A DNA stretch of 53,451 bases from contig JAAZXR010000031.1 in the NCBI GenBank assembly GCA_014240065.1, forward strand, positions 1 to 53,451, given 5' to 3'. Shown here in pieces: positions 5,933-52,498 of this stretch. Source of the DNA: Myxococcales bacterium (GTDB lineage: Bacteria > Myxococcota_A > Polyangia > Nannocystales > Nannocystaceae). A model generated the notes under the pieces. It had not been told where the DNA came from. It worked only from the letters and a program-made list of their open reading frames with translations, and made no database searches. Positions within the stretch are counted from its first letter, which is position 1. The number at the start of each line of letters is the position of its first letter. The translations under genes and the position numbers were made by a program.

Positions 5933-7629
5933 ACGAGATGACGACAGACTTCAGACCCGTCTTGGTGGTGCCGGTCTACAATCACCACCTCAAGCTACCG
6001 GAGATCGTCGCATCCACCGAAGGGCAGGGCTTGCCCTGCATCCTTGTGAATGACGGGAGCGGCGAGCAGACCCGTGATGTGCTTCGCTCTCTTCGAGGGG
6101 AGGGCGTGACCGTAGTGGATCTCCCCACAAATGGGGGGAAGGGCGCCGCCGTGATCGCGGGCCTCACCGAGGCCGCCGAGCGTGGGTACACCCACGCCGT
6201 TCAAATCGACGCGGACGGCCAACACAATATTGCGGAGGCGTCTTCGTTCCTCGAGGCGGCTCGTTCGGCCCCGGAGGCGGTGGTGTTGGGGACGCCGACA
6301 TACGACGAGTCGGTCCCGGCGTACCGATACTTCCTGAGATATTTGACCCACGCTTGCGTCTACCTCGAGACCTTGTCCTTTGCGATCAAAGACTCAATGT
6401 GTGGCTTCCGGGTCTATCCGCTCTCCCGGTGCATGGCGCTGATCAACCGCACCTCACTGGGCAGACGCATGGATTTCGACGTGGAGATCGCTGTCAGACT
6501 GTGCTGGAGCGGCGCAGAAATTATCAACGTACCGACGCCGGTGATCTACCGTGACGAGGAACCGTCGCATTTTCGACTCGTCCGAGACAACGTCCTCATC
6601 ACGTGGCTTCACACCCGCTTGATCTTGGGCATGTTCGCGCGACTGCCATTGTGGATTTGGCGCGGTGGCTGGGGCAGCCGACAGGTGTCACGCTGGGACA
6701 CCACGCAAGAGCGAGGCTCTCGGCTCGCGATCAAGCTGGTCATCTGGCTGTACCGTCTCCTGGGGAGGCGCGTCTGCTATTGGATTCTCTATCCTGTCAT
6801 CGGCTACTTCTTCCTCACCGGACGGCGAGCGAGGCGGCACTCTCACAACTATCTCCGCCGCGTTTGGCAGACCGAAGCGGGCCGAGCGTCGCTGGGCGAC
6901 GAACCGCGCGCGGGCGCCACGTTTCGACACTTGCTGGAGTTCGGACGCTCGTTCGTGGACAAGTTCGCGTCATGGATGGGGGAGATCCCGGCGAATGACC
7001 TCCGCTGGGAGAGCCGCGAGGTGCTCGATGAGTTGATTCAGCAAAAACAAGGAGCGGTGGTGATGAGCGGGCACCTCGGCAACCTCGAAGTGCTCAGGGC
7101 CGCCTGCGACGTCGTGCCGGGCGTCGTTGTGAATCATCTCGCGTTTACTGAACACGCCGAGAAGTTTGTCGAGCTCCTCAATGACGTGAACCCAAACGTA
7201 GGAGTGAATATGCTGTCGACGTCGTCGGTTTCGCCCGATTTCGCGGTGATGCTGCAAGATCGCGTCAGCCGCGGTGAGCTCGTGGCTGTCATGGGCGACC
7301 GGACCATCGGTGGTCCCACCGCGCGCACCGTGGAGGTAGAGTTTTTGGGCCAGACCGCCAAGTTCCCCCAAGGACCGTTTATTCTCTCTGGGCTGCTCGA
7401 ATGTCCAGTGTATTTGATTTTTTGCTTGAGGGACGCTAGCGGGGGTTATCGAATCTACCTTGAGAAGTTTTCCGATTCTTTGAAGGTGAAGCGCAAGGGA
7501 CGAGAAGCGGCGTTGACCAGAATCGTGACATCATACGCGGCCAGGCTTGAGCACTACTGCGGTCTCGCTCCGCTTCAGTGGACGAACTTTTATGACTTTT
7601 GGAACGAGGACCATGAGGCGGTCCGTTAG
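5929..7629 (+). CDS. Glycosyltransferase 2 - LpxL-type acyltransferase fusion (ApeJ type)
   Basis: Two-domain protein of 566 residues. Residues about 10-240 are a family 2 glycosyltransferase (VVPVYNHH start, DADGQH metal-binding motif near 94). Residues about 260-566 are a lysophospholipid/lipid A acyltransferase domain with HLGNLE near 382 and GDRTIGG near 455. Such fusions are a hallmark of aryl-polyene and flexirubin clusters and are believed to transfer a sugar or acyl group while attaching the polyene to its lipid anchor. A hydrophobic stretch near 275-300 probably tethers it to the inner membrane. GTG overlaps the preceding stop (GTGA). Confidence 0.85.
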   Translation: MNEMTTDFRPVLVVPVYNHHLKLPEIVASTEGQGLPCILVNDGSGEQTRDVLRSLRGEGVTVVDLPTNGGKGAAVIAGLTEAAERGYTHAVQIDADGQHNIAEASSFLEAARSAPEAVVLGTPTYDESVPAYRYFLRYLTHACVYLETLSFAIKDSMCGFRVYPLSRCMALINRTSLGRRMDFDVEIAVRLCWSGAEIINVPTPVIYRDEEPSHFRLVRDNVLITWLHTRLILGMFARLPLWIWRGGWGSRQVSRWDTTQERGSRLAIKLVIWLYRLLGRRVCYWILYPVIGYFFLTGRRARRHSHNYLRRVWQTEAGRASLGDEPRAGATFRHLLEFGRSFVDKFASWMGEIPANDLRWESREVLDELIQQKQGAVVMSGHLGNLEVLRAACDVVPGVVVNHLAFTEHAEKFVELLNDVNPNVGVNMLSTSSVSPDFAVMLQDRVSRGELVAVMGDRTIGGPTARTVEVEFLGQTAKFPQGPFILSGLLECPVYLIFCLRDASGGYRIYLEKFSDSLKVKRKGREAALTRIVTSYAARLEHYCGLAPLQWTNFYDFWNEDHEAVR

Positions 7630-7662
7630 CCCACGCATGACACGACGAGAGGGACTGGCAAC

Positions 7663-9207
7663 GTGAGGATCTCAGACGCGAAATGGACCGTGGAGGACGT
7701 CCTTCGAGTGGCACACAACGCGGCGACGCCCTTGGCGCTTGAGGGGGGAGCGTGGCGGGCACGCATCGAGGCCGGCGCCGCGTTCCTCCAACGCGAGCGC
7801 GAGACGAAAGGGGCGATCTACGGGGTCACGACGGGGTTCGGAGATTCGTGTGAAGTCACGGTCGCGCCCGAGCAGCATGGCCAGCTCCCGATCAACCTGA
7901 CGAGGTTCCATGGTTGTGGACTCGGGCGAGAGCTGTCCGTGGAGGCGTGCCGGGCGGTGCTCGCGACCCGCCTCGCCTCGCTCGCTCGTGGATGCTCGGG
8001 CGTCCGGGTGAGCCTCCTCGAATTTCTCGCAGACCTCATCAATCGAGACATCATTCCCGTGATTCCTGAGGAGGGCTCGGTCGGCGCGAGCGGCGATTTG
8101 ACCCCGCTCTCCTACGTCGCGGCTGTGATGCTCGGCGAGCGCCGGGTGTACTACGACGGAGGCGTGCACGATACGGGCGATGTGTTCGAGAGACTCGGCG
8201 TCGAGCCCTATCGCCTCTTGCCAAAGGAGAGCCTCGCGATCATGAACGGGACGTCGGTGATGACCGCGCTCAATTGCCTCGCATACGACAAGGCCGTGTA
8301 CCTGCAGGCGCTCGCCTGCCGTATCACCGCCCTCGCCACGGAGGCGTTGGTAGGGAATCGAGGTCACTTCGATCCGGTGTTGTTCGCGATGAAGCCGTTC
8401 CCCGGTCAGGCGGCGGCGGCGGCGCGGATCTACGGGGATCTATACCCGGTCCAGCATGATGACAGTCGCGATCACCTGCAGAATCGGTATTCGATCCGCT
8501 GCGCCCCACATGTGATCGGCGTCTTGAGCGACGCCCTCGTGTGGATGAAGGAGCATATTGAGATCGAGCTGAACTCTGTGAATGACAACCCGGTGATCGA
8601 TGTGGATGGGGAGCGGATTCTCCACGGTGGCCACTTTTATGGCGGCCATATGGCGTTCGTTGCGGACGCGCTGAAGGTGGCCGTCGCCAATGTTGCGGAT
8701 TTGCTCGACCGCCAGCTCGCGCTGCTCGTGGACTACCGGACCAGCCAGGGCCTACCGAAGTGCCTGTCGGGGGCGCAGGATGTGGACGCGAGCATCAATC
8801 ATGGACTGAAGGCGCTGCAAATCGGCGTCTCCGCGTGGACGGCTGAGGCGCTCAAGGGCACCATGCCGGCCAGCGTTTTTTCGCGGAGCACCGAGTGTCA
8901 CAACCAAGACAAGGTCAGCATGGGTACGATCGCGGCGAGGGATGCGCTGCGGGTCATCGAGCTCACCGAGCAGGTCGCCGCGGGGTGCTTGCTCTCGAGC
9001 GTGCAGGCGGTGCGGCTCCGCGAGCGGGAATCTCAGGGCTTGACCCTCACGCCCGCCCTGCGGCAGATGGTCGAGAGCGTCGCGGAGCTGGTGCCGCTGG
9101 TGGAGCAAGATCGCGCTCTCGAGGGTGAGCTTCGGATGTTGCTCAGCAAGATTGGCTCCCAGCACTGGAAACTGTACCCGTCTCAAGATGAGGAGGCGCC
9201 TCGCTAG
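7663..9207 (+). CDS. Aromatic amino acid ammonia-lyase (HAL/TAL/PAL family, MIO enzyme)
   Basis: 514 residues, full length for the histidine/tyrosine ammonia-lyase family. The Ala142-Ser143-Gly144 triad in GSVGASGDLTPLSY will cyclise to the MIO electrophile, and the catalytic Tyr loop IYGVTTGFGDS lies near 48-58. The substrate-selectivity pair in NLTRFHGCG is Phe82-His83; the His is what tyrosine-selective enzymes carry, while histidases have a different pair, so tyrosine is the best guess. In context it supplies a cinnamic or 4-coumaric type starter acid for the AMP ligase encoded upstream. Enterobacterial clusters lack it and use a benzoate-derived starter. GTG start with GAGGGA about 10 bases upstream; 33-base gap from the preceding gene, the largest inside the operon. 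Confidence 0.85.
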   Translation: MRISDAKWTVEDVLRVAHNAATPLALEGGAWRARIEAGAAFLQRERETKGAIYGVTTGFGDSCEVTVAPEQHGQLPINLTRFHGCGLGRELSVEACRAVLATRLASLARGCSGVRVSLLEFLADLINRDIIPVIPEEGSVGASGDLTPLSYVAAVMLGERRVYYDGGVHDTGDVFERLGVEPYRLLPKESLAIMNGTSVMTALNCLAYDKAVYLQALACRITALATEALVGNRGHFDPVLFAMKPFPGQAAAAARIYGDLYPVQHDDSRDHLQNRYSIRCAPHVIGVLSDALVWMKEHIEIELNSVNDNPVIDVDGERILHGGHFYGGHMAFVADALKVAVANVADLLDRQLALLVDYRTSQGLPKCLSGAQDVDASINHGLKALQIGVSAWTAEALKGTMPASVFSRSTECHNQDKVSMGTIAARDALRVIELTEQVAAGCLLSSVQAVRLRERESQGLTLTPALRQMVESVAELVPLVEQDRALEGELRMLLSKIGSQHWKLYPSQDEEAPR

Positions 9208-9626
9208 TGGAAGAATCCCGTCTCAGCGCGACGGTGACGCTCGAGGTCCCGTTTCACGACGTGGACGCCATGGAGGTCGTCTGGCACGGCCACTACTACA
9301 AATACTTCGAGATCGCTCGCACAGCCCTCGCGCGCCGGCTGGACTATGACCAGGAGGCCATGAGCGCGTCCGGATATGTCTGGCCGGTGATAGAATGTAC
9401 GTGCCGCTTCGCGCGTCCGCTGAAGTACGGGATGAAGTTCACTGTGACCGCGACCCTCATCGAATGGGAGCATCGAATGAAGATCCTCTATGTGATCCAC
9501 GAGCGCGACGGCGGTCGCCGCATGGCGCGGGGCCACAGCGTGCAGGTCGCGGTCGAACGTGAGACCGGGACGATGTGTTTCGCGTCGCCGCGCGCGCTCG
9601 TCGAGAGAGTGGAGCGGTGGACATGA
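9207..9626 (+). CDS. Hotdog acyl thioesterase (ApeK type)
   Basis: 139-residue 4-hydroxybenzoyl-CoA thioesterase family protein. The motif HDVDAMEVVWHGHYYKYFE near residues 14-32 contains the family's catalytic Asp and substrate-binding aromatic residues. It probably hydrolyses stalled or finished acyl-carrier thioesters of the polyene. GTG start overlaps the stop codon of the ammonia-lyase gene; its own stop overlaps the next ATG (ATGA). Confidence 0.8.
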   Translation: MEESRLSATVTLEVPFHDVDAMEVVWHGHYYKYFEIARTALARRLDYDQEAMSASGYVWPVIECTCRFARPLKYGMKFTVTATLIEWEHRMKILYVIHERDGGRRMARGHSVQVAVERETGTMCFASPRALVERVERWT

Positions 9627-35208: not shown

Positions 35209-36141
35209 CTATTTCAAGTAGGCGCCGCAGCGCAGGTCGCCGTCGGCCACCTCGTGCTCGGCGTCGTGGGGTGGAAACGCCGTCCGGTCGCACAGCGCCG
35301 CGAAGATGTTGAGGATCTCCTGGGCGTCGTCGCTTTGGCGGGCCATGGGGCTCCCCGGATGTCCGTTGAGCACCTTGAGCCAGCCCTCGTAGGCCTTCAT
35401 GCGGCCAAAGGCGCCCACGGTGTAATCCCCGTCGATGAGGATCTCCTGCCCGGCGTCGCCGTGGCAGCCGGAGCATCGCTGTCCGAAGGAGGCGGTGCCC
35501 GCGGCCGCGTCGGCCCCGTCGACGAGGGTGTAGTTTTTGGGCGCGTCGGTGGAGAGCGCGAAGATCTGATCGGGTCGTGGCAGCGCCCCGTCTCGCACGG
35601 CGACCACGAAGCCCACCAGCGCCTCGATCTGCGCCGGGCTCAACACCTCCCCGAAGGCGGGCAAGGTGTCGTCGCCGCGGGTGAACCAGGCGACGAGCTC
35701 CGCGGGCGTTCGGGTGTCGGTGAGCAGGTTGGTGGCGCGCACGTAGCTCTTGTTTTGGTAGTCGGGACCGTAGACGCCCTCGGTGCCGCGCAGGTCCCAG
35801 CCGAACAGATTCTTGAGGCGGTAGTCATGGCCGGTATTGGCGACGGGCTGACCGTCTCGATTGTTGAGCGTGCCGTCGTCGTTGGGGCCCGCCACGCCGT
35901 CGATCGCCTCGGTGGTTTTGGCGTCGGGGGAGAAGCCGCCGGTGTAGCCCTCCACCTTGAACCATTTGTCGTAGATTTGACCGCCCAAGGCCGTGTCGAT
36001 TTCGGTCACGGAGGCAGACGCAGAGGCGTCTGCGGTGTCGTCGGGGCGGACCGGCGGTTTGCGCTCCGACGCGGGTTCACACGCCATCGAGAGGGAGAGA
36101 CAGAGCGCGAAACAAGGGAGGTGGAGGCGTCCGAGGTGCAT
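35209..36141 (-). CDS. Cytochrome c lipoprotein with one intact heme site
   Basis: 310 residues. The ATG at 36141 gives a signal with lipobox SLSMAC (residue about 21). The C-terminal domain carries one heme-binding motif CSGCH (near 221) with a distal Met likely in GRMK or PMAR. The N-terminal half looks like a di-heme cytochrome arm (GGQIYDKWFKV, YVRATNL) but lacks a CxxCH, so only one heme should be covalently bound. It lies immediately downstream of the TonB gene in a Fur-controlled operon; iron reduction or electron transfer in uptake is a hypothesis. Confidence 0.75.
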   Translation of the reverse strand: MHLGRLHLPCFALCLSLSMACEPASERKPPVRPDDTADASASASVTEIDTALGGQIYDKWFKVEGYTGGFSPDAKTTEAIDGVAGPNDDGTLNNRDGQPVANTGHDYRLKNLFGWDLRGTEGVYGPDYQNKSYVRATNLLTDTRTPAELVAWFTRGDDTLPAFGEVLSPAQIEALVGFVVAVRDGALPRPDQIFALSTDAPKNYTLVDGADAAAGTASFGQRCSGCHGDAGQEILIDGDYTVGAFGRMKAYEGWLKVLNGHPGSPMARQSDDAQEILNIFAALCDRTAFPPHDAEHEVADGDLRCGAYLK

Positions 36142-36192
36142 CGCGAACAACCTACACCAGCCTCGCCGGGCGCGGCGCAAAAAAAATACGCC

Positions 36193-36864
36193 TCAGCCCG
36201 TACCGGTTTTGAGGCGAAAACGGACCGGGAGTTTGATCGTGGCGGAGTCCTTCTCGAACGCGGAGGGGAGCGGCAAAAACGGCGCCGCTTGCTTCACCAT
36301 GCGCAGCGCCTCCTTGTCGAGCACCTCGTGTCCGCAGCTCTTGGCCACGCTCGGGAGGCCGATGAGCTTGCCGACGCGGTCGACCTTGATTTTGACGACC
36401 ACGTCGCCTTCGAGGCCGAGCCTGCGGGCGGCGATGGGATAGCGCTTGTGGGATTCCATGGACGCGTGCATTCCCCGGGCGTAGGCCTTGAGCGCCGCCT
36501 TGCCGTCCGCTTTGGGGGTGGGCGCTGGCGCCTTGTCCGGCACAGTGGGCAGAGGCTTGGGGGCGGCTGTGTCAGGGAGGGCGGGCACCGGATCCAGGGG
36601 CGGCGGCGCGGCCTCGGTGGGTTCAATCGTGGGCTCTGGCGAGGGCTCGCGCGTCGGCTCGGGAGGGGGTGGCTCCCTGGGCTCGGGATCGGGTTCGGGT
36701 TCGGGCTCGGGTTCGGGTTCGGGCTCGGGCTCAGGTTCGGGTTCGGGTTGAGGCTCGGGAGGAATCGGGCGCATGCGCAGTTTCACGACCTCCGGTCGCG
36801 TCACGGGTGCCGCGCCCACCACGGGGAGCAGCACGATCCCCGCGTGGACGGCGACTGCCGCCAC
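36193..36864 (-). CDS. TonB energy-transducing protein
   Basis: 223 residues. The long Glu-Pro/Pro-Glu repeat (about 36-60) and Pro-rich spacer are those of TonB, and the C-terminal domain contains RYPIAARRLGLEGDVVVKIK and the final beta-strand region with FRLKTG. The first canonical codon in frame after the ExbD stop is GTG at 36864, which leaves a single short hydrophobic segment directly at the start. The in-frame codons between the stop and that GTG (AIRLQRIAGPF) would add a cytoplasmic positively charged start but contain only ATC or CTC. The true start is therefore uncertain. Confidence 0.8.
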   Translation of the reverse strand: MAAVAVHAGIVLLPVVGAAPVTRPEVVKLRMRPIPPEPQPEPEPEPEPEPEPEPEPEPDPEPREPPPPEPTREPSPEPTIEPTEAAPPPLDPVPALPDTAAPKPLPTVPDKAPAPTPKADGKAALKAYARGMHASMESHKRYPIAARRLGLEGDVVVKIKVDRVGKLIGLPSVAKSCGHEVLDKEALRMVKQAAPFLPLPSAFEKDSATIKLPVRFRLKTGTG

Positions 36865-36897: not shown

Positions 36898-37302
36898 TCA
36901 GCCCCCCTGTCTTTCGGTGGTGGCGATGGCGACGGATTCAAAGCCCGCGAGGCGAGCGTCGGCCATGATCTCCACCGCCGCCTGCACGTTGGCGCCGCGA
37001 TCTGCGGTCAACAGCACCGACTCGTGGCTCGCGCGCTTGGATTTGAGCACGTCGAGCACCGCGTCGCGACTCACCTGCTCACCGTCGATGTGGACCCGGC
37101 CGTCGGCAAACACTGTGACTTGGAGCCCCTCCGTTTGATGCTGGGGCGCGCTGTCGGTTTGGGGCAGATCGATCTCCATGTCGCGCTCTTGGCGGAAGGT
37201 CGCGGTGAGCACGATAAAGATCACGAGGATGAAGGCCACGTCGATGAGCGCCGAGAGGTTGACGTGCGGCTTGCGTTCCTCGACTGCGCTAAAGTCGATC
37301 AT
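36898..37302 (-). CDS. ExbD-type proton-channel protein
   Basis: 134 residues: a short cytoplasmic N-terminus, one membrane helix (VAFILVIFIVLTATF, about 24-38) with the essential Asp in SALIDVAF just before it, and a periplasmic ExbD/TolR domain. It supports TonB by energising the receptor. The ATG at 37302 overlaps the ExbB stop by 4 bases, so the pair is coupled. Confidence 0.9.
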   Translation of the reverse strand: MIDFSAVEERKPHVNLSALIDVAFILVIFIVLTATFRQERDMEIDLPQTDSAPQHQTEGLQVTVFADGRVHIDGEQVSRDAVLDVLKSKRASHESVLLTADRGANVQAAVEIMADARLAGFESVAIATTERQGG

Positions 37303-37934
37303 GAGCGAGGATCCGAGGAGGGGTAGGCGTAGCGCAGGCGCTGCACCACGGTGGTGAGCTGGACGCGAAAGCGCGCCACGCGACTGGTGAGGTAGGCGTG
37401 CACCGACAGGGCTGGAACCGCCACGGTGAGGCCGGCGGCGGTGGTCAACAACGCCTTCCAGATCCCCCCCGAGAGCGCCTCCATGGCCATCGAACCTGTC
37501 TGCTGTCCTTGGATGCCTTGGAATAATTCGACCATGCCGACCACGGTTCCGAGGAGCCCGAGCAACGGGGCAATTTCGGCGCACAGGGCCAGGGGACGCA
37601 TATTTCGCTCGAGGCCGGCGATGGCTTCGAGGCCGGCGCGTCGCGCCTCGTCGTCGGCTTGCTCAGGTTTGTCCGCCATGGCGTGGATAAACGCCTCCGC
37701 CACGGCCCCCGCCGGGTGACGGGTGGCGGCGGCGGCTTGCTGCGCGGACTCGAGGTCGCGCTCGCGAAGGCCCACAATCACCGCGTCGAGCCATCGCACG
37801 TCGGCGAGTCGCGCGGCGGTGAAGTCGAGCACCTTCCGGATCGTCAGCATGACCACAAACACCGAGCACACGTAGATAGGGACCATCGTCCAGCCCACCT
37901 CCGCGAGGAGTTCCCATAGATTTTGTTCTTGCAT
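37299..37934 (-). CDS. ExbB-type proton-channel protein
   Basis: 211 residues of the MotA/TolQ/ExbB family. Three helices: N-terminal (about 12-32), and the conserved pair near 115-135 (IAPLLGLLGTVVGMVELFQG) and 155-178 (WKALLTTAAGLTVAVPALSV). It forms the proton channel with ExbD that drives TonB. The gap from the receptor gene is 14 bases. Confidence 0.9.
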   Translation of the reverse strand: MQEQNLWELLAEVGWTMVPIYVCSVFVVMLTIRKVLDFTAARLADVRWLDAVIVGLRERDLESAQQAAAATRHPAGAVAEAFIHAMADKPEQADDEARRAGLEAIAGLERNMRPLALCAEIAPLLGLLGTVVGMVELFQGIQGQQTGSMAMEALSGGIWKALLTTAAGLTVAVPALSVHAYLTSRVARFRVQLTTVVQRLRYAYPSSDPRS

Positions 37935-37948
37935 ATGCCTGTCCCTTC

Positions 37949-40900
37949 CTAAGATCCGAAATCGTATTTAAACCCGATGCTCGCGAAGCGTGGGCGACCG
38001 GGGCGGGCACCAAACGGGCGTCGCGAAACCATGTACTCGGCGCCGGTCACGTTCATCATGTTCATGTAGATCGACGCGCGCTCGTTCACCCACACGCGTC
38101 CGCCGAGGTCGAGGGTGACGAAACGGTCGACCCGCTGAGCCTCGGGGATCGCGCCCTGGCTCGGCGTGTCGCGCATCTGCCCGTTGTAGGCGAGGGTGCC
38201 CCATAGGCCCCACTTCTTCATGCCGCCCGCGAGCTTGAGGCTCGCGACGTGGACGGGCAAGTACGGCAGCGCGTCGCCGGCCTCCACAATTCCAAACTGC
38301 GGGCTCGCCGAGGCGAAGCTGCGCTCGAACCGAGACCAGGTGAAGGTGTAGTTGGCGTCGGTGTCGATCCAACCGTTTCGCTTGAAGCGTCGCTCAAATC
38401 CGGCCGCGACCTCGGCCCCCGCTACCTTCACCTTGCCGGCGTTGAACTGGTCGCCAATATTACTGTCGTCGCAGCCTTGGGCGAAGGTGCACTCGCCCGT
38501 GAGGTTGGAGTAGTCGTTGAAAAATCCGACGGCTTCTGCGGTGAAGCCTGCGAGTGGTTCCCCGCCGAGCCGAAATCCCCCCTCGTAGTTGATGCTGCGC
38601 TCGGGGCGGACGTCGTCGGCTTGACCCGGGGCGACCGGAGAGAAGCCCGAGTGGACGCCCGCCAGCACCCCGAGCCAGTCGGTGGCTTGGACGTGGGCGC
38701 CGACGCCCGGCACGAACACAGCGTTAAAGGCGCTCGATTTGCTCCCGTTGAGGTCGTCGGTGAAGTCGGTGCGGATAAGCTCCACGCGGGCGCCAGGCGA
38801 GACGGTGAAACGATCCACGATCACGATTTCATCGTGGAGGTGGAGCGCGCCGGCGTAGGCGGCGCCGCGGTTGAGCGTGGTCTGCTCCTCGTCGGTCCCC
38901 TCGGGCACGAGCGTGGAGGACACCATCAAGTAGCCGTCTTGGGTGTGGTCGCGGCGGATGGTGTCGGCGTGGAACCGCGCCCCAAACTCGATGGTCTGGT
39001 CGACGTACTTCGTGCGCGGTGAGATGCGGAGCGTGTTCTGGATCCCTTGGGACACGTAGCGCCGGGCGTTCGTGCCGATCATGAGGGCCTCGTCGGCGCT
39101 GGTGCTGTCTTCTTCCCCGCGGAGAATTCCCAAATAGATGGCCGACTGCCCGCCGCTGTCCGCCATGACGTCTTCGATGCTCGGTCCGCCGCGAAAGGTG
39201 TTGAACTTGGTCCACGCGCGGGAGAAATCGTGGCGGTAGGCGGTGGTCTGGAACTCCACCAAGTCGCCGTAGGCCAGCAGGTAGCTGAGCTGGGCCTGGC
39301 TTCGCCACCACCGCATCAGGCCCTTTTGAGAGCCCACGTAGCGGCGATAGGGGTTGGCCTCAAAATCGGCGTCGGTCAAGCCGAGGTAGGTCTCAAAGGA
39401 GCGCTCGGTGGAGATGCCCGCTTTGGCGTCGAACTGGTGGTACACGCGGGCCGCGGGATCCACGTTCGCGCGCAGCTTGAGCATGCCCTCGTTTTTACCG
39501 AAGCCCGTGTCCCCGCCACCGTCGAGCTCTTTGAAGCCGTTGGATTGGATGCGCACACCCTCCACGAGCATGCCGAAGTGCTTCCAGCTGCGACCCCAGT
39601 GGCCGTGGGCCTTGCCGTATCCGCGCTGACCGATGGCGAGGTCGAGCCCTCCGTCGCTCTCGCGAGGGATGTCGCGGGTGCGCAAGTTGATGGCGCCGCC
39701 GATGGTGTTGGGGCCGTAGCGCACGGCGGCGGGGCCTTTGAACACCTCGATCCCCACCATGCGGGTGGTCATGGGGAAGTAGTAGGCGGCGGGGGCTGCG
39801 TAGGGGGCGGGGCCAAGCAGCACGCCGTCCTCCATCAAGGTGATCTTGGAGCTTCGGTTGGGATCGACGCCGCGCAAGCCGATGTTGGGGCGCAAGCCAA
39901 AGCCGTCTTCGCCGCGGACGTACACGCCGGGCACGGTCCGCAGGACGCGTTGCACGTCGTCGTTCTCGTCACGCTCGAGGGTGGCCTCATCCACGAGGTG
40001 CGCTGAGCCCACGATGCGCGGAAGCTCCTCGGGTTCACCGATGATGGAGACGGTGGGGGCGGCGATGTCAGCGGTGACGCCTCGGGTGTCCACGTCGGGC
40101 TCGTCGGGGGATTGGCCCGCGGTGTCGTCGGTCGCGGGGGCGTCCTCGGCTTGCTCGTTGGGCTCGTCGTAGAAGTCGGAGAGGTCAACGTCGGCGCCTT
40201 CCTCGTCGTCAGCGGCCTCGGGCGGGGTCGGTTGCTCGGGCGGGGCGGGCTCTGCAGGCTCTGCAGGCTCTGCGGCCGTCACCGTAGTGGGAATCAACAG
40301 TCCACCCGCGAGGACGCTCAGCTTGACGCCGGGGGTCCAAGGCTTGCGCGCCGGAGCAGGACGGGGCGGTGGCGCGAGGACGCGAGCGAGGCCGCGGACC
40401 GGGTCGAGCAGCACCGACGTGAGGCGGTGCGGGTCATGGTTGCGGTCCTCGGGGTGGAGCCCAAAACCTTCGGGGGGGGCGGCGTCCGCGAGTCGCAAGG
40501 AGCCGCCGAGGCGGTCCCAAACAGCGAGCCACGTCCCGTAGTTTACCTGGCCGCGGGCGCGGGTCTTTGCGTGGTGAAGCTGGTGCTGCGCGGGGCTGAT
40601 GAACCAGCGCTCGAGCCGTGCGCCCCAGCGCCAAAAGGTGTGGCTGTGGCGCAGGTTCCCGCCGAGGGCGCTGAACGTGACGCCGAGGGCGTTCACCCCG
40701 AGGAGTTGGTTCTCCACCGCGGCCCCGCGGAAGAAAAAGTAAAACACCGCCGTGACCAGCCCGGTCACGAGGACGCCGCGCGCCTGGTACAGCGCGGTCT
40801 CCACCGGGTGTACGCGGTACAAGGTGAAGGGGGTCAGCGTCTCGGCGCTGTGGTGCACTTGGTGCACCTGCCACAGCGCCTCCACCCGGTGCATGGCCAG

Positions 40901-41317
40901 GTGGAGCAGGTAGCGGCTCAGATCCCACGCCACAAACAAAACCACCGTGTACACGAGCCCCACCTGCCAGGTCTCGAACCCCGTGAGCTCGGGCCGACCA
41001 AACAGGCGGTCCGCGCGTCGCACCAAGAAGGCCGCGATCCCATGGGCCGTGAGCGCCCACGGCAGCGCCCACAACGCGAACAACAGCGGCTTGATCGCGA
41101 TGAGCAGGTAGTCCACGCGCGCCGACGGCCCGAGCCATTGTCGGACGAGGTCACGCCCGGATCCGTGGCCGCGCGCGCGCGCGGAGAAATCGAGGGCGAG
41201 CACCACCACAGCCGCCGTGAGCAGGTAGCCCCAATAGGTCCGCGCCGCCGGGTCGAACAAGAGGTTCGTCCACGAGCGAGAGAGCGCGTCCAGCATGGGG
41301 GCGTCAGTCGGCGTCAC
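37949..41317 (-). CDS. Fatty acid hydroxylase/sterol desaturase fused to TonB-dependent receptor (FecA-like)
   Basis: A 1122-residue protein of two parts. Residues about 25-315 form a membrane-bound fatty-acid-hydroxylase/sterol-desaturase domain with several helices and the di-iron His clusters HLAMH (139-143), HQVHH (152-156) and HQLHH (245-249). A hydrophobic segment, VKLSVLAGGLLIPTTVTAAE (331-350), follows and looks like a signal sequence with a VTA/A cleavage site. After an acidic Pro-rich linker comes a FecA-like receptor: plug about 430-560 (IGLRGVDPNRSSKITLMEDG) and beta-barrel to the end. There is no ATG, GTG or TTG start within 20 codons before the internal signal, and no frameshift. 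Overlap with the imelysin gene by 14 bases; GTG start has GAGG upstream. Confidence 0.85.
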   Translation of the reverse strand: MTPTDAPMLDALSRSWTNLLFDPAARTYWGYLLTAAVVVLALDFSARARGHGSGRDLVRQWLGPSARVDYLLIAIKPLLFALWALPWALTAHGIAAFLVRRADRLFGRPELTGFETWQVGLVYTVVLFVAWDLSRYLLHLAMHRVEALWQVHQVHHSAETLTPFTLYRVHPVETALYQARGVLVTGLVTAVFYFFFRGAAVENQLLGVNALGVTFSALGGNLRHSHTFWRWGARLERWFISPAQHQLHHAKTRARGQVNYGTWLAVWDRLGGSLRLADAAPPEGFGLHPEDRNHDPHRLTSVLLDPVRGLARVLAPPPRPAPARKPWTPGVKLSVLAGGLLIPTTVTAAEPAEPAEPAPPEQPTPPEAADDEEGADVDLSDFYDEPNEQAEDAPATDDTAGQSPDEPDVDTRGVTADIAAPTVSIIGEPEELPRIVGSAHLVDEATLERDENDDVQRVLRTVPGVYVRGEDGFGLRPNIGLRGVDPNRSSKITLMEDGVLLGPAPYAAPAAYYFPMTTRMVGIEVFKGPAAVRYGPNTIGGAINLRTRDIPRESDGGLDLAIGQRGYGKAHGHWGRSWKHFGMLVEGVRIQSNGFKELDGGGDTGFGKNEGMLKLRANVDPAARVYHQFDAKAGISTERSFETYLGLTDADFEANPYRRYVGSQKGLMRWWRSQAQLSYLLAYGDLVEFQTTAYRHDFSRAWTKFNTFRGGPSIEDVMADSGGQSAIYLGILRGEEDSTSADEALMIGTNARRYVSQGIQNTLRISPRTKYVDQTIEFGARFHADTIRRDHTQDGYLMVSSTLVPEGTDEEQTTLNRGAAYAGALHLHDEIVIVDRFTVSPGARVELIRTDFTDDLNGSKSSAFNAVFVPGVGAHVQATDWLGVLAGVHSGFSPVAPGQADDVRPERSINYEGGFRLGGEPLAGFTAEAVGFFNDYSNLTGECTFAQGCDDSNIGDQFNAGKVKVAGAEVAAGFERRFKRNGWIDTDANYTFTWSRFERSFASASPQFGIVEAGDALPYLPVHVASLKLAGGMKKWGLWGTLAYNGQMRDTPSQGAIPEAQRVDRFVTLDLGGRVWVNERASIYMNMMNVTGAEYMVSRRPFGARPGRPRFASIGFKYDFGS

Positions 41318-42539
41318 CCGCGGCCTCGCTGGGGATCGAGAGCATCAAGAGCGTCGAAAAATCGCCCTTGAGCCAGTTGGTGACCTCGCGGACCGCGGTG
41401 TGGCAGGCGTTGAGGGCGGCGGGCTCCGAGGTCAGCGCCGCGGCGAACGAGCCCTCCACAGCGCCACACGTGGTGAGCGCTGTCTCGATGCTGGCTGCCA
41501 TGCTGGCGGCGAGCGGCGCCTCGCCAATGGACACGAGCAGGTCGTCAAACCCAGTGTGTTGGGCGGCGTCTGTGCCCCCGTGGAACAGGCGCTTGAACCC
41601 CTCAAGATTGGCGAGCACCGCGTCCTTTGAGCGCTGCGCGTGGACGAACTCAAGGTCGGCGATGCAGGGGGCTGCGGCGCATTCGAGGACGCCAGCGGGC
41701 ACCCCGAGTTTGTCGTCCTTCACCTCAAGATCGAGGTAGAACATGGCCCGAACCACCTCGTTGAGGCCGGCGCGAACGGTGCCGTAGGGAGAGTTGTTCA
41801 GGTCGGGATCGGCGAGCGCTACGGTGAACGGACCATCCGCTGCGGACCACGCCTGCGCCAGCCCGGCGGCCTCCGTCGCCAGCGCGGTCGCGACCGCGGT
41901 CGCATAGTTGGCGCGGCGTTTCGCGATCTCATCGGGGCCCAGCGCCGCCCACGTGCCGTCGACGTTAAGGGGGAGTTGGGGAGCGCAGGCGTTGGCGTCG
42001 CCGCCGTAAAACAGCAGGTATTCGAGGGCGTCAAGGCCGTAGGTGTTCACGAGGTTGGCGGTGAAAAAGTCGCCTTGAAGATAGCCTTGCTCCACGAGCT
42101 CTTGGTCGATGCGGCATGGGTTCACCGTGGGCCACGAGTAGATCTCATCACGCTTGCCAGCCCCGCCGACACCGCTCCCGGTGGGCGCGGCCGGACCTAG
42201 CTGCATCTGCTCCACAACCTCCCACGCCATGACCGCATCGGTCCACGCGGTTTGGGCGGCGGCGCGTTGTTCGTCGGTGCCTGAGCCCGCGGCTGCAGCC
42301 GTCGCGTAGGTGGAGGTGGCAGCTTCCAGGGAGGTCGCAGCGGCGGCGGCGGCCTCGTACGACGGAGCGATGGCGTTGTACGCGAGGCTGGTGAGCATGG
42401 CCCGGTGCATCGACGCATCGCCGGGGATGGCCGCGTTTGAGCCTGAGGAGCTCGACGACAAGTCACCGCACGCGAGCGGGGTCAACGCGCTCGCGAGGGA
42501 CGCGGTCAACGCGAAAATCGTGGGGTGCAGGTGCTTCAT
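41304..42539 (-). CDS. Imelysin-family iron-binding lipoprotein (IrpA/EfeO-like)
   Basis: 411 residues. MKHLHPTIFAL... with lipobox TPLAC (near residue 24), then an all-helical peptidase-M75-like fold. The family motif GxHxxE appears here as GLDALE (near 159-164) with Asp in place of His; other imelysins bind iron there. It probably catches iron in the periplasm or at the outer membrane and works with the neighbouring receptor. It begins 22 bases after the DUF4856 gene stop. The ATG at 42539 is preferred over an upstream start that lacks a signal. Confidence 0.85.
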   Translation of the reverse strand: MKHLHPTIFALTASLASALTPLACGDLSSSSSGSNAAIPGDASMHRAMLTSLAYNAIAPSYEAAAAAATSLEAATSTYATAAAAGSGTDEQRAAAQTAWTDAVMAWEVVEQMQLGPAAPTGSGVGGAGKRDEIYSWPTVNPCRIDQELVEQGYLQGDFFTANLVNTYGLDALEYLLFYGGDANACAPQLPLNVDGTWAALGPDEIAKRRANYATAVATALATEAAGLAQAWSAADGPFTVALADPDLNNSPYGTVRAGLNEVVRAMFYLDLEVKDDKLGVPAGVLECAAAPCIADLEFVHAQRSKDAVLANLEGFKRLFHGGTDAAQHTGFDDLLVSIGEAPLAASMAASIETALTTCGAVEGSFAAALTSEPAALNACHTAVREVTNWLKGDFSTLLMLSIPSEAAGDAD

Positions 42540-42561: not shown

Positions 42562-43974
42562 CTACCAGCCACCTTCTCCGAGTTCGTCGCCCAGGTTCGA
42601 CGCGGCAAATCCGTAGGCTGACGCGAGCAGGCTTCGCGCCTCCCGCAAGTTCGCTTGATACGCGGGGTCGAGGTCAGGCGCCTCGCCGATCCACATGTGG
42701 AGCGCGATAAACTGCGCGTCGGTGAGCGTCATGCGGGGGTTGAACTGCAGCGCCAGGGCGAACCCTTTGAGCTCGCTCCAATGCTTTGCGAGCGTGTCAA
42801 AGCCGACGGCGTCGTCGTTGAGGTCTCGCAGCGTGTCGTTGATGTAGTGGACGGCCGTGGCCGCCAGCGCCTTCTCCCAGCCCTCGATGGCGGCGTCGCG
42901 TTGGGTTCGAAGCGCCGTCTGTTCCGCCTCGGACAGGTCCCCGTCGGCGGCGGCGATGATGGTCCTGCCGGTCAAGAACGCGGTCATCGTGTCCGTGGAG
43001 AGGTCTGTGGGGGCGGACTCGGCGGCTCCGCGGTCCCGCTTGGAGGCATTTCGTGCGGCGCCAAAGTTGTACTCAGAGAGCAGGTCGATGGCGCCGCTAC
43101 TGTCGTGATCGTGGGCGGCGCTGTCGGCGATATCAGCGTCGGCATAGGCGAGGTAGTCCCGAGCGCCACCCCAATATCCGAAGCCCTCGTCCCAGGCGTG
43201 TTCGAGCGCGGTGTATGGCGCTCCCTCCTCCACGGTCGAGTTGTCAGCTTGCAGCCCTTTGCCCTCGATGTCGTCGTCGAGGTAGTCGTCGGCGGCTTGG
43301 GAGAAGTTCACTGCGCCAAGCAAGAACTTCTCCATGAGCTGTTGGTAGTCGCGGCCGTCGGCGTCCACGTACCACATGGGGATCGCGGCGCCGTCGGGGT
43401 CAATGGGGATGATGCCGGTGGAGAAATCCACGGCGAGCGCGTCGAGCTCATCCATCCACTGCGCGACCAGAGCGTCAGGGGCGACCGCGTCTCCCCAGCC
43501 AACAACGCCGGCGGCGTTCCAGTCCACGTGTTGTCCCGTGGGATCTTGCCCGGCAATTTTTCCGCGCAGATCTTTGCCGGTGGTGATGTCGTCGAAGGTG
43601 ATTTGGGCGGGTGCGGGATCGGTGACCACGCCGTGGCCCAGTTGCCCGGCGGAATCGCTGTCGAAGGTGTAGTAGAGGTTCAAGCGCGCCCGCACCTCTC
43701 CCGCAGAGAACACCGCGCCGCCGTTGTCGATTTCTTCTTGGATGGTCGAGAACTCTCGCTTCATCGACGTAATGAGCACCTGACGAAAGGTTTGTCCCGC
43801 ATAGGAGACGCTGTCCGCGCCCTCGAAGCGCGAGGCAAACTCGTAGCGGGTCGGCACCGCAAGCTCGCCTCCACCGCTGTCGGTGTCGCCACACGCGGTC
43901 GCGACGGCCAGTGAGGACACGAGGAGGGGCGCGACGAGTGCGAGGAGGGAGCGGTCTTTTAGGGGGGCGGCCAT
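42562..43974 (-). CDS. DUF4856 lipoprotein
   Basis: 470 residues, first gene of the iron operon. Signal peptide with lipobox VATAC (near residue 27). The body matches DUF4856: YEFASRFEGADSVSYAGQTF at the start, YTALEHAWDEGFGYWG in the middle, and LALQFNPR near the end. DUF4856 genes are commonly found beside imelysin and TonB-receptor genes, chiefly in Bacteroidetes, and have no settled biochemical function. A partner in iron capture is the natural inference. The preceding frame extends upstream, but the ATG at 43974 gives the signal. Confidence 0.85.
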   Translation of the reverse strand: MAAPLKDRSLLALVAPLLVSSLAVATACGDTDSGGGELAVPTRYEFASRFEGADSVSYAGQTFRQVLITSMKREFSTIQEEIDNGGAVFSAGEVRARLNLYYTFDSDSAGQLGHGVVTDPAPAQITFDDITTGKDLRGKIAGQDPTGQHVDWNAAGVVGWGDAVAPDALVAQWMDELDALAVDFSTGIIPIDPDGAAIPMWYVDADGRDYQQLMEKFLLGAVNFSQAADDYLDDDIEGKGLQADNSTVEEGAPYTALEHAWDEGFGYWGGARDYLAYADADIADSAAHDHDSSGAIDLLSEYNFGAARNASKRDRGAAESAPTDLSTDTMTAFLTGRTIIAAADGDLSEAEQTALRTQRDAAIEGWEKALAATAVHYINDTLRDLNDDAVGFDTLAKHWSELKGFALALQFNPRMTLTDAQFIALHMWIGEAPDLDPAYQANLREARSLLASAYGFAASNLGDELGEGGW

Positions 43975-44030: not shown

Positions 44031-44045
44031 TGAAAAAGATTATCA
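44031..44045 (-). promoter_or_regulatory. Fur box upstream of iron-uptake operon
   Basis: TGAAAAAGATTATCA matches the 7-1-7 Fur consensus TGATAATnATTATCA at 12 of 14 specified positions. It sits 57-71 bases before the start of the DUF4856 gene, a usual place for Fur repression. It fits iron-starvation control of the whole operon. The flanks TTGTCAACGCAAT and CAATAAG are AT-rich, as expected for a promoter. Confidence 0.6.
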
Positions 44046-49036: not shown

Positions 49037-49333
49037 CTCGACCAGGCACTAGCATCCGTGGAAACCGTCTTGGTGACAAAGGGAGCTGTCGTGGATCGCG
49101 TGCTGCCGCCCTCGCCCGTGGACGGTGGGGATGGGCAGCATCGCGACACGGTGGAGAGCTCTGCTCGTTCCGACACCGTGGACGCGCACAAACTGCGCTG
49201 CAAACGTTGTTCGTGCGCGTTGGAACCGAGACGGGGGGCGCGCCTCCTTTGGGATCGACGGTTTGAAGTTCCTCGCTGAATTTGGGAGTTTCGCCGGCGA
49301 GGTTTGAGTAGACTGGCCTCGCGGGATGTACGG
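49037..49333. other. Divergent intergenic region before kinase gene
   Basis: No gene is supported; open frames on both strands are shadows of GC-rich sequence. It should hold promoters for the hydrolase (minus) and the kinase (plus). I see no consensus promoter. Confidence 0.4.
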
Positions 49334-52300
49334 ATGACCGAAACGTTGGAAGAGCATGCGGCAGACTTTGGGAGCTACACCCTCGGCGAATTGATCGGTG
49401 CCGGAGGCATGGGCGCGGTGTACCGCGCCGTCGACCGATCTCTCGGGAGAGAGGTCGCGGTGAAGTTGATTCGAGACTTTGGACCGGAGACAGGGCACGG
49501 TTTGCTGACTCGTTTTCAGCAAGAGGCGCGGGCCATCGCGCAGCTACGATCGCCGCACACGGTGGAACTGTACGCCTTCGGATCCACGCCCGACGGTGTT
49601 TTATACTACGCCATGGAGCTGCTTGAGGGGTGCAACCTGCAGTCGCTGGTGGATCACTTTGGAACCGTCGACCCGAGACGCGCGGTCTTTATGTTGTCCC
49701 AGGCCTGCATGTCGTTGGCGGAGGCACATGAGGTGGGGCTAGTTCACCGTGACATCAAGCCGGCCAACCTGTTTGTGGCGCGCATGGGCACCCAGGTCGA
49801 TCACCTCAAGGTTCTTGATTTTGGTGTGGTGAAACACTCTTCGGTGCCGACCGCGACCCTCACGCGTACCGGGGCGCTGATTGGTTCGCCCGCCTATATC
49901 GCGCCGGAGACGTTGATGGAGGACGGCGCCGACGCGCGAGCAGACATTTACGCGTTGGGGTGTGTCGCCTACTGGCTCGTGACGGGCGTCTCGCCCTTCG
50001 CTCGAAAGTCTGTGATGGCGACCTTGCTCGCCCACGCCTCGGAGGTCCCGACGCCGCTCGCGGACTGCTCGCCGACGCCGGTGTCCGCCGAATTTTCGGA
50101 GCTCGTGGCGCGGTGCATGGCGAAAGAACCCAGCGCTCGACCGCAGTCCATCGCGGAGGTCGCGGCGACACTCGACAGCGTTCCCGAGTCGAATTCTTGG
50201 TCCGGCGCCATGGCGAAGGCGTGGTGGCGCGAGCACCAGCCCGGATCGTCTGGCAGCCGCCACGTAGGATCGTCGCCGGCGCGCCAGCCCACCGCTGGAT
50301 CGGAAATCTCGCTCGCAGGAGCGAGCGCCCGCGGAACCGTCATCGAGACCTTGGGAGAGAGCGTCGCCGGGGGGCTTGGTCGCGACACACCTCCAGAGAA
50401 CGCGCCGCCGGAGCTTGAACCGAGCGTCGCGGACAGCGTGGACGCGAGCGGCGGTAACCTCGACCTGCCCTCGTTGGCGCTTGTTGGACGTCAGGCGGAG
50501 CTTGATGAGCTTGAGCGGTGGCTGCTTCAAGACCACGCGCGGCTCATCACCCTTCGTGGCTTTGGCGGAGCGGGCAAAACCCGGCTGGCGCTGGAGCTGG
50601 CGGACCGCGTGCGCGCGCAGTTCCCCGATGGCGTGTGGTGCTTATCCTTGGCGCCGCTGTCGTCGACAGATTCGCTCCGGGCCAAGGTCGCGGGCCTGTT
50701 TGGCGTGGGGGCGGAAGCCCTCGACGGGTACTTGGCCGGCAAACGGCTGTTGCTCGTCCTCGACAACTGCGAACACGTGCTCGACAACGTGGCGAAGCTC
50801 GCGTCTCAACTGCTGCGCGCGCGTGGCGTGGTGCTGCTCACGACGACGCGTGAGACGCTCGGGCTTCGTGAGGAGCGGCCCTTTGAGGTAGGGAGCCTAC
50901 CCGTTCCCGACATCGGCGACGATTTTGAGACCCTGTCTGCGAACGCCGCGGTGAAGCTGTTCGTTCAAAACGCGAGGGTGCTCAAGCCTGGCTTTGCGCT
51001 CGATCCCGTGACAGCGGAATCCATCGCGAGCATCGCTCGAACGGTGGCCGGAATCCCCCTGGCCATCGAGTTGGCGGCGTCGCGACTGCGGATGCTGTCG
51101 CCGGCGGAGATTGACCGCCGGCTGGAGCAGAGTTTTAAGCTGCTGCGTCGCAAGGATCGGGACACGACCCCCCATCATCAGACGCTCGATCAGGCCATCG
51201 ACTGGAGCTACAAGATGCTCTCGTCCGAGCAGCAGCAGCTGTTTCGACGCCTCTCGGTGTTTCGCGGCAGCTTTACCATGGAGGCCACCGCGGCGCTCCA
51301 TGAGACCGAGGACGATCTCGAGCTGTTGGAGACCCTGGGGGAGCTCCTCAACAAGTCGATGGTGCAGCAGAGCGCCTCGGGGACGCCGGAGATTAGCCGC
51401 TATGTATTGCTCGAGCCGCTGCGTCAGTTCGCCGAGGCTCGCATGGACGCCGCGGAGCTGAGGCAGACGCGGGACGATCACGGGGAGTATTTTGCCGGGT
51501 ACGCCGAGAGCGTCGCCCAGTTTTTGCGCGGGCCCGAACAGATCAGTTGGCTGAAGGATGTACGCGCCGATGATGCGAACCTCGTCGCCGCGATCACCCA
51601 CGCCGTGGACGCGGGGCGACCGGACCCGGCCCGGCGAATTGGGGCGGCGCTGCTGTGGTTCTGGTTGGCCGAGCGTCAGCTTGTGGAGATCAACGGACAC
51701 CTCGCGGCCGCCTTGGCCATGGAGGGTGGGGCGCCGGTGCCGAAGGCGTACGCGCTCATCAGCCACGCCTTCGCCATGTGCACGCTCGATCCGAATCGCT
51801 CGGAGGAGGCGCTCGCGCTGGTGCGAGAGGGCAGCGCGATATTCCATGAGTGTGGCGTGGGCGCGGGGATTGGTCAGGCACGAATTTACGAGGGCATCGT
51901 GCTGTGGAACCAGCGGGAGTTGCGGCAGGCCGCGGACCTGTTCGCAGAGACCCGCCCGATGATGGAGGCCGCGAACTTCGGCTGGGGCGAGAGCATGTGC
52001 CACTGGTTTATGGGATCCGTCGCGGTCTTCCACCGAGAGGTTGCGCGCGCGCGTGAACATTTTACGAAGGCGACCGCCGGTTTTCGGGCGCATGGAGACA
52101 CCTTCTTGTTGACGTGGGCGCTGCTCACCGAGGGGCGACTGGCCTTGTGCGAGCGGGATTTGAGCCGGGCCAAGGCGCTGTATGAGGAGTCGCTGCCGTT
52201 GATGCGTGAGGTGGGCGATCGCCTCGGACTCGGGACGCTTTACTTGAGCTTGGCCGTGTGCGCGCAGCAAGGGGGCGACGAAGAAGACGGTCGCCGATTT

Positions 52301-52498
52301 TCAGAGCTGGGACAGCGAGAGCTGCGACGCGGGCTCGGAGGCCAGGGGCTCAGCTGGGCGGTGTCCAACGCGCCCGTCGAGACACGGACCCTGGAACAAG
52401 TATTGGAGGCGGGTCAGCGATATCGCAACGCGCTCGATTGGGATGGTGACGACTGGGCGACGATGGTCTTCGCGGACGCCGCCTCGTGGAATGGTTGA
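49334..52498 (+). CDS. Ser/Thr protein kinase - NB-ARC ATPase - TPR regulator
   Basis: 1054 residues. Kinase domain about 14-285: glycine loop GAGGMG (22-27), Lys44 in VAVKLI, catalytic loop HRDIKPAN (near 138), DFG in LDFGVVK, APE in YIAPE. After a Pro/Ser linker, an NB-ARC/AAA-type ATPase has P-loop GGAGKTRL (near 411-418) and Walker B LLLVLDNCEH (near 475). From about 720 onward a TPR-like helical repeat region is seen. This layout (kinase, STAND ATPase, TPR) is typical of myxobacterial signalling switches, but no output DNA-binding domain is visible. The ATG at 49334 is preferred over a TTG 30 bases upstream. Confidence 0.85.
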   Translation: MTETLEEHAADFGSYTLGELIGAGGMGAVYRAVDRSLGREVAVKLIRDFGPETGHGLLTRFQQEARAIAQLRSPHTVELYAFGSTPDGVLYYAMELLEGCNLQSLVDHFGTVDPRRAVFMLSQACMSLAEAHEVGLVHRDIKPANLFVARMGTQVDHLKVLDFGVVKHSSVPTATLTRTGALIGSPAYIAPETLMEDGADARADIYALGCVAYWLVTGVSPFARKSVMATLLAHASEVPTPLADCSPTPVSAEFSELVARCMAKEPSARPQSIAEVAATLDSVPESNSWSGAMAKAWWREHQPGSSGSRHVGSSPARQPTAGSEISLAGASARGTVIETLGESVAGGLGRDTPPENAPPELEPSVADSVDASGGNLDLPSLALVGRQAELDELERWLLQDHARLITLRGFGGAGKTRLALELADRVRAQFPDGVWCLSLAPLSSTDSLRAKVAGLFGVGAEALDGYLAGKRLLLVLDNCEHVLDNVAKLASQLLRARGVVLLTTTRETLGLREERPFEVGSLPVPDIGDDFETLSANAAVKLFVQNARVLKPGFALDPVTAESIASIARTVAGIPLAIELAASRLRMLSPAEIDRRLEQSFKLLRRKDRDTTPHHQTLDQAIDWSYKMLSSEQQQLFRRLSVFRGSFTMEATAALHETEDDLELLETLGELLNKSMVQQSASGTPEISRYVLLEPLRQFAEARMDAAELRQTRDDHGEYFAGYAESVAQFLRGPEQISWLKDVRADDANLVAAITHAVDAGRPDPARRIGAALLWFWLAERQLVEINGHLAAALAMEGGAPVPKAYALISHAFAMCTLDPNRSEEALALVREGSAIFHECGVGAGIGQARIYEGIVLWNQRELRQAADLFAETRPMMEAANFGWGESMCHWFMGSVAVFHREVARAREHFTKATAGFRAHGDTFLLTWALLTEGRLALCERDLSRAKALYEESLPLMREVGDRLGLGTLYLSLAVCAQQGGDEEDGRRFSELGQRELRRGLGGQGLSWAVSNAPVETRTLEQVLEAGQRYRNALDWDGDDWATMVFADAASWNG

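Follow-up and report, generated by a model that had tools for sequence, protein, structure and literature searches.

A hydroxylase and a TonB-dependent receptor in one reading frame: a probable polyprotein of an iron-uptake operon in Myxococcota

The stretch of 53,451 nucleotides at positions 1 to 53,451 of contig JAAZXR010000031.1 of a Myxococcales bacterium (assembly GCA_014240065.1), referred to as the window, carries on its minus strand a gene of 1122 codons plus stop with a GTG start (37949..41317), in which a membrane di-iron domain of the fatty acid hydroxylase/sterol desaturase type is followed in frame by a TonB-dependent receptor (TBDR). Comparative evidence suggests that this gene belongs to an iron-uptake operon under the putative control of Fur and probably encodes a polyprotein, whose halves would be separated at an internal signal peptide and sorted to two membranes. 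The joint between the two halves is shared by about 40 genomes from nine bacterial families, which makes cleavage into two proteins probable. A polyprotein of this kind had been suggested by an earlier examination of the letters of the window alone (hereafter the sequence-only reading); comparison across the phylum supports it well, with the cleavage step itself predicted from sequence features.

Architecture of the fused gene

Pfam profiles place FA_hydroxylase at residues 125-272, Plug at 437-542 and the TonB barrel at 657-1089 of the frame, all above cut-off. The single frame with hydroxylase, signal-like segment and receptor is borne out. The first part, a fatty acid hydroxylase/sterol-desaturase-like membrane di-iron domain, occupies 40418..41317 (Pfam match 40502-40945; minus strand, as are all features of the locus given below). 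It is followed by a putative internal signal peptide, residues 324-349 (40271..40348), with a basic n-region RKPWTPGVK, a hydrophobic core LSVLAGGLLIPTTV and predicted cleavage after VTA or TAA; the segment with a VTA/A site that had been proposed is thus recovered as RKPWTPGVK-LSVLAGGLLIPTTV-TA/A. Next come an acidic, proline-rich spacer with which the mature receptor would begin (residues 350-421; 40055..40270) and a candidate TonB box, TVSIIG (residues 422-427; 40037..40054), suggested by its position before the plug. The second part comprises the plug (437-542) and the beta-barrel to the C-terminus of a FecA-like TBDR (37949..40009), placed by Pfam, a PDB sequence match and Foldseek. An AlphaFold model of the full fusion, built from 14 sequences, is weak (predicted local distance difference test, pLDDT, 64.6), with a poorly modelled plug.

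Recurrence of the fusion

The surveys covered 59 relatives first, then the class (318 genomes) and the phylum (379 genomes); flanking DNA was taken for nearly every hydroxylase locus, and all locus members were sought by profile. The search of the 59 relatives yielded several more frames of 1127-1206 amino acids. A 1208-amino-acid open frame around the receptor of genome G044, on the other hand, holds no hydroxylase. Because long frames can arise by chance in this way, a fusion was counted only where both domains were found by profile in one frame. Searched for separately, the two halves met in one frame in 38 of the 97 hydroxylase loci, which with G001 gives 39 genomes of nine families (f1, f11, f36, f43, f45, f51, f52, f68 and f70) that share the receptor fusion, a recurrence that excludes chance as its source. 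Two further receptor fusions were scored by inspection (G002, whose two halves each run up to the end of a contig, and G481, in which the frame breaks in the plug); the rest of the 97 loci are imelysin-fused (11), creatininase-fused (1), unfused (39) or unclear (6). Absence from all close relatives, which would have spoken against the sequence-only reading, is not seen: the fusion is missing from just a minority of them (G010, G018).

The same data bear on whether the joined frame is an assembly or sequencing artefact, or a pseudogene in which a lost stop has joined two genes. Most fused cases come from draft or metagenome-style assemblies and the frame breaks in a few members (G549, G457, G481), as such an origin would have it. 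However, the architecture is found across diverged sequences of all nine families, the active-site histidines are intact, and the ratio of non-synonymous change is low on either side of the joint (0.08 and 0.07). In the window itself, a sequencing error splitting two genes, which the sequence-only reading had listed among the findings that could overturn it, is refuted by a 97%-identical genome of the same genus in which the fused frame is also intact. An artefact, frameshift or pseudogene is therefore refuted by the comparative data and can be considered extremely improbable.

The joint between the two halves

Several properties of the joint are consistent with an internal signal peptide that is translated as part of the fused frame. 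Across 51 fused junctions, the hydrophobic core exceeds the level of shuffled sequences (combined P 6e-25), and the mean net charge is +2.6 before the core and -5.2 after it. An AxA motif was found by pattern in 34/38 TBDR fusions. Hydroxylases that are not fused end at a median distance of 33 residues from the domain, close to the point at which the fused proteins enter the signal. In the compact members G575 and G560, the tail of the hydroxylase doubles as the signal n-region, the sequence in G575 being LLSAWLAPIRAA-LTLVALFLVLPAHA/ED. The linkers of the closely related G148 and G149 differ by 6 synonymous changes and 1 non-synonymous change (P 0.004), which argues that the linker is translated in the fused frame.

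An alternative is internal re-initiation, by which synthesis of the receptor would begin at an in-frame codon close to the hydroxylase end (in the window, the GTG about 30 codons before the core), the open frame being incidental in GC-rich DNA. GC-rich frames do easily stay open, as in G044, and some fused relatives have a plausible internal start, namely an ATG whose Shine-Dalgarno match is fair (G038, -7.4; G144, -6.9; also G377). In the window, by contrast, the candidate GTG is the nearest in-frame start before the core and has no Shine-Dalgarno match, a further TTG and GTG lying inside the hydrophobic core, and the statement that no start stands just before the internal signal holds. In 13/38 TBDR fusions, the stretch from the hydroxylase end to the signal core is devoid of ATG, GTG and TTG codons. 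Separate receptor and imelysin genes of these loci usually keep an ATG no more than 30 codons ahead of the signal core (38/52), whereas fused ones mostly do not (8/24; P 0.002), and in G575 and G560 the hydroxylase tail would be needed as the signal n-region. An internal start with its own ribosome site (in the window, one before residue 331) would have spoken against the sequence-only reading. Such a start is plausible in a few relatives, but none that is conserved could be found, and no start position is conserved. A separate start for the receptor is absent or poor in most fused members; re-initiation appears unlikely as a general explanation, although double initiation may occur in the minority that keep a plausible start.

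Apart from the few plausible internal starts, three further points weigh against translation through the joint followed by cleavage. The signal-peptide features were scored by simple statistics; the linker of the window differs from that of G001 by too few changes for a selection test; and the pooled linkers do not show the usual coding pattern of GC content by codon position. An aberrant pattern is expected for short linkers rich in arginine, proline and alanine, yet it is not supportive.

The fusion could also remain uncut and bridge the envelope, with the hydroxylase in the inner membrane, the acidic, proline-rich spacer crossing the periplasm and the receptor in the outer membrane. The spacers of Nannocystaceae-type fused members, about 70 to 190 residues long, would suit such a bridge. 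However, the receptor starts a few to about 25 residues after the AxA site in G557, G342 and G493, which is too short to span the periplasm; the unfused G010 and G018 receptors have similar acidic N-terminal spacers; and barrel assembly with an inner-membrane tether would lack precedent. An uncut bridge is accordingly given very little weight, and a polyprotein cut at its internal signal is preferred in what follows.

Other passengers of the same hydroxylase family

The receptor is not the only protein joined to this hydroxylase. In the 11 imelysin-fused loci, hydroxylases of this family continue in frame into imelysin lipoproteins whose lipobox cysteine is invariant (11/11), and in one locus (L056, genome G027, 5839-7695, minus strand) a hydroxylase of the family is joined in frame to a creatininase-family lipoprotein with the lipobox LFATQSSC. 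The only trait common to the receptor, the imelysin lipoprotein and the creatininase lipoprotein is that they are exported. One large part of the hydroxylase tree consists mostly of receptor fusions and includes a few unfused members, and the imelysin fusions lie mainly in another part; additionally, the receptor fusion of G213 falls inside a clade of unfused genes, and the imelysin fusion of G102 falls among receptor fusions. The two passenger types together with the creatininase case would require several separate origins of the fusion, the number of which is uncertain because many forks of the tree are weakly supported.

A broader idea, offered tentatively and judged less likely than not to be right, is that this di-iron hydroxylase family serves as a recurrent translational leader, whose C-terminus has been recruited several times as the signal peptide of exported iron-uptake proteins (TBDR, imelysin lipoprotein), the products of the resulting 1:1 polyprotein being sorted to two membranes by signal peptidase. 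If this is true, completion of the enzyme could serve as an inbuilt control by which receptor export is tied to the hydroxylation of an envelope lipid or iron ligand in iron starvation, since the enzyme needs both iron and O2.

The hydroxylase and receptor halves

The hydroxylase half matches FA_hydroxylase (PF04116) with 81.1 bits against a gathering cut-off of 31, and it carries the complete set of metal-ligand clusters (HX3H, HX2HH, HX2HH) that the sequence-only reading had recognised: HLAMH (residues 139-143; 40889..40903), HQVHH (152-156; 40850..40864) and HQLHH (245-249; 40571..40585). The histidines of these clusters, H139 and H143 among them, as well as H170 and H224, are invariant in an alignment of 71 homologues, and the enzyme half therefore looks functional. 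The genome has seven FA_hydroxylase genes, the other six of which lie in frames of at most 448 amino acids. AlphaFold models the hydroxylase part well from 71 sequences (pLDDT 88.6); neither the model nor the profile of this part gave a significant PDB fold or profile match. The nearest named member is the ornithine-lipid hydroxylase OlsE (NF052566), a weak match of 39.1 bits that does not reach the equivalog cut-off of 475. A reasonable guess is that the substrate is a membrane lipid or an amphiphilic iron ligand, these being the likeliest candidates. In an unfused relative (L113, genome G289, 7672-8718), the gene directly after the hydroxylase encodes a fatty acid desaturase (PF00487), a hint of a lipid substrate. 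Of the earlier proposal that lipid hydroxylation is coupled to iron uptake, the iron part is supported by the operon and by Fur-box-like sites (see below), and the lipid part is suggested at the level of the enzyme family, by the weak OlsE match.

In the receptor half, the plug (PF07715) and the barrel (PF00593) are both above cut-off. FecA is its best PDB sequence match and is also found by Foldseek (2.8e-23, with a modest model); the cut-off of the FecA ferric dicitrate equivalog (NF041676) is not reached (78.7 bits versus 1100), and the Pfam scan of the fused protein showed no signalling domain of the FecA type. The mature N-terminus of the receptor (40055-40270) holds acidic repeats of the DVDLSDFxDE type, which are also present in the unfused G010 and G018 receptors and occur repeatedly in G003 and G013. 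In L163 (genome G412, 5867-9307), a long DSGDSDGGDSDGG repeat stands in the receptor N-terminus soon after the internal signal. On plasmids, the matches listed were to the receptor half only, none of them covering 80% of the query, and their annotated neighbourhoods contain no hydroxylase.

The locus and its probable regulation by iron

Pfam assigns the operon order as DUF4856 protein, imelysin, hydroxylase::TBDR, ExbB, ExbD, TonB and cytochrome c-type protein. The first gene encodes the DUF4856 protein (42562..43974; PF16148; likely start ATG 43974) and the second, a separate gene, an imelysin (Peptidase_M75) lipoprotein (41304..42539; PF09375; lipobox LTPLAC; likely start ATG 42539), whose stop is overlapped by the GTG start of the fused gene. 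The receptor stop is separated by 15 bases from the start of ExbB (37299..37934; PF01618), which is followed by ExbD (36898..37302; PF02472; likely start ATG 37302), TonB (36193..36864; PF03544) and, downstream of TonB, the cytochrome c-type protein (35209..36180; PF13442). Elsewhere in the window, at 49304-52498, a Ser/Thr protein kinase is joined to NB-ARC/AAA and TPR-like regions. A PADLOC scan with defence models gave no match.

Upstream of the operon lies a Fur-box-like 7-1-7 inverted repeat, TGATAATCTTTTTCA (44031..44045), with a 13/14 match. Fur-box-like sites of at least 11/14 occur within 450 base pairs of the first gene in 33/33 testable TBDR-fused loci, against 0.37 expected from shuffles. 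Near-perfect versions are present in relatives, one of them being TGAAAATGATTTTCA upstream of the G024 locus. In Leptospira, imelysin/TBDR operons such as the LruB locus are described as induced by iron limitation (PMC13066512, PMC7567364). Taken together, the Fur-box-like sites and the response of the Leptospira operons make expression of the fused gene during iron starvation very probable.

Proposed mechanism

The evidence above can be assembled into the following sequence of events. With Fur exerting control through the putative upstream site, translation would begin at the hydroxylase start and the hydroxylase would insert in the inner membrane, its C-terminus facing the cytoplasm as the topology of the family predicts. 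The basic tail of the hydroxylase and the hydrophobic stretch that follows would then serve as an internal Sec signal peptide, exporting the remaining chain. Signal peptidase I is predicted to cut after the AxA-type site; in the sister imelysin fusions, signal peptidase II would cut after lipidation. The hydroxylase would stay in the inner membrane, whereas the FecA-like receptor would cross the periplasm to the outer membrane, and enzyme and receptor would be synthesised in a fixed 1:1 ratio.

A polyprotein is a very unusual bacterial route to a membrane-protein pair, and to our knowledge there are hardly any known cases in bacteria of a polyprotein whose parts are sorted to different membranes. 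The present family offers natural replicates across the phylum, with two main kinds of passenger and with unfused sisters that can serve as controls, which make the use and cutting of an internal signal peptide after a polytopic membrane enzyme directly testable. Additionally, it places a conserved, undescribed hydroxylase in a Fur/imelysin/TonB iron-uptake locus, and so gives a clue to function in a large branch of the fatty acid hydroxylase superfamily that lacks annotation.

Comparison with known systems

In a literature search, imelysin was not found linked to a fatty acid hydroxylase or sterol desaturase, and the literature that names both a fatty acid hydroxylase and a TBDR appears, in the text available, to concern other matters. 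The nearest resemblance in locus composition is to the LruB locus of Leptospira, which likewise combines an imelysin lipoprotein, a c-type cytochrome/di-haem protein and a TBDR; in the accessible parts of its descriptions, however, no hydroxylase is mentioned and there is no fusion (PMC13066512, PMC7567364).

The receptor half shares with FecA and other TonB-dependent siderophore receptors the plug, the barrel, a TonB-box-like segment and an adjacent ExbB-ExbD-TonB system, but unlike FecA it is covalently preceded by an inner-membrane hydroxylase. Similarly, the hydroxylase half has the fold family and the histidine clusters of OlsE but, unlike OlsE, carries a C-terminal signal peptide and a passenger, within an imelysin/TonB iron operon.

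With regard to mechanism, FbcH of Bradyrhizobium japonicum, in which cytochrome b and cytochrome c1 are made from one gene and separated by signal peptidase, would be the closest known counterpart of a hydroxylase::receptor polyprotein. Both have one frame, a polytopic inner-membrane protein placed first, an internal signal peptide, an exported second protein and an inferred signal peptidase cut. The proteins involved are unrelated, and the two products of FbcH remain in one inner-membrane complex, whereas here the second would reach the outer membrane or become a lipoprotein. Moreover, and unlike FbcH, the hydroxylase leader appears to have been joined separately to different passengers.
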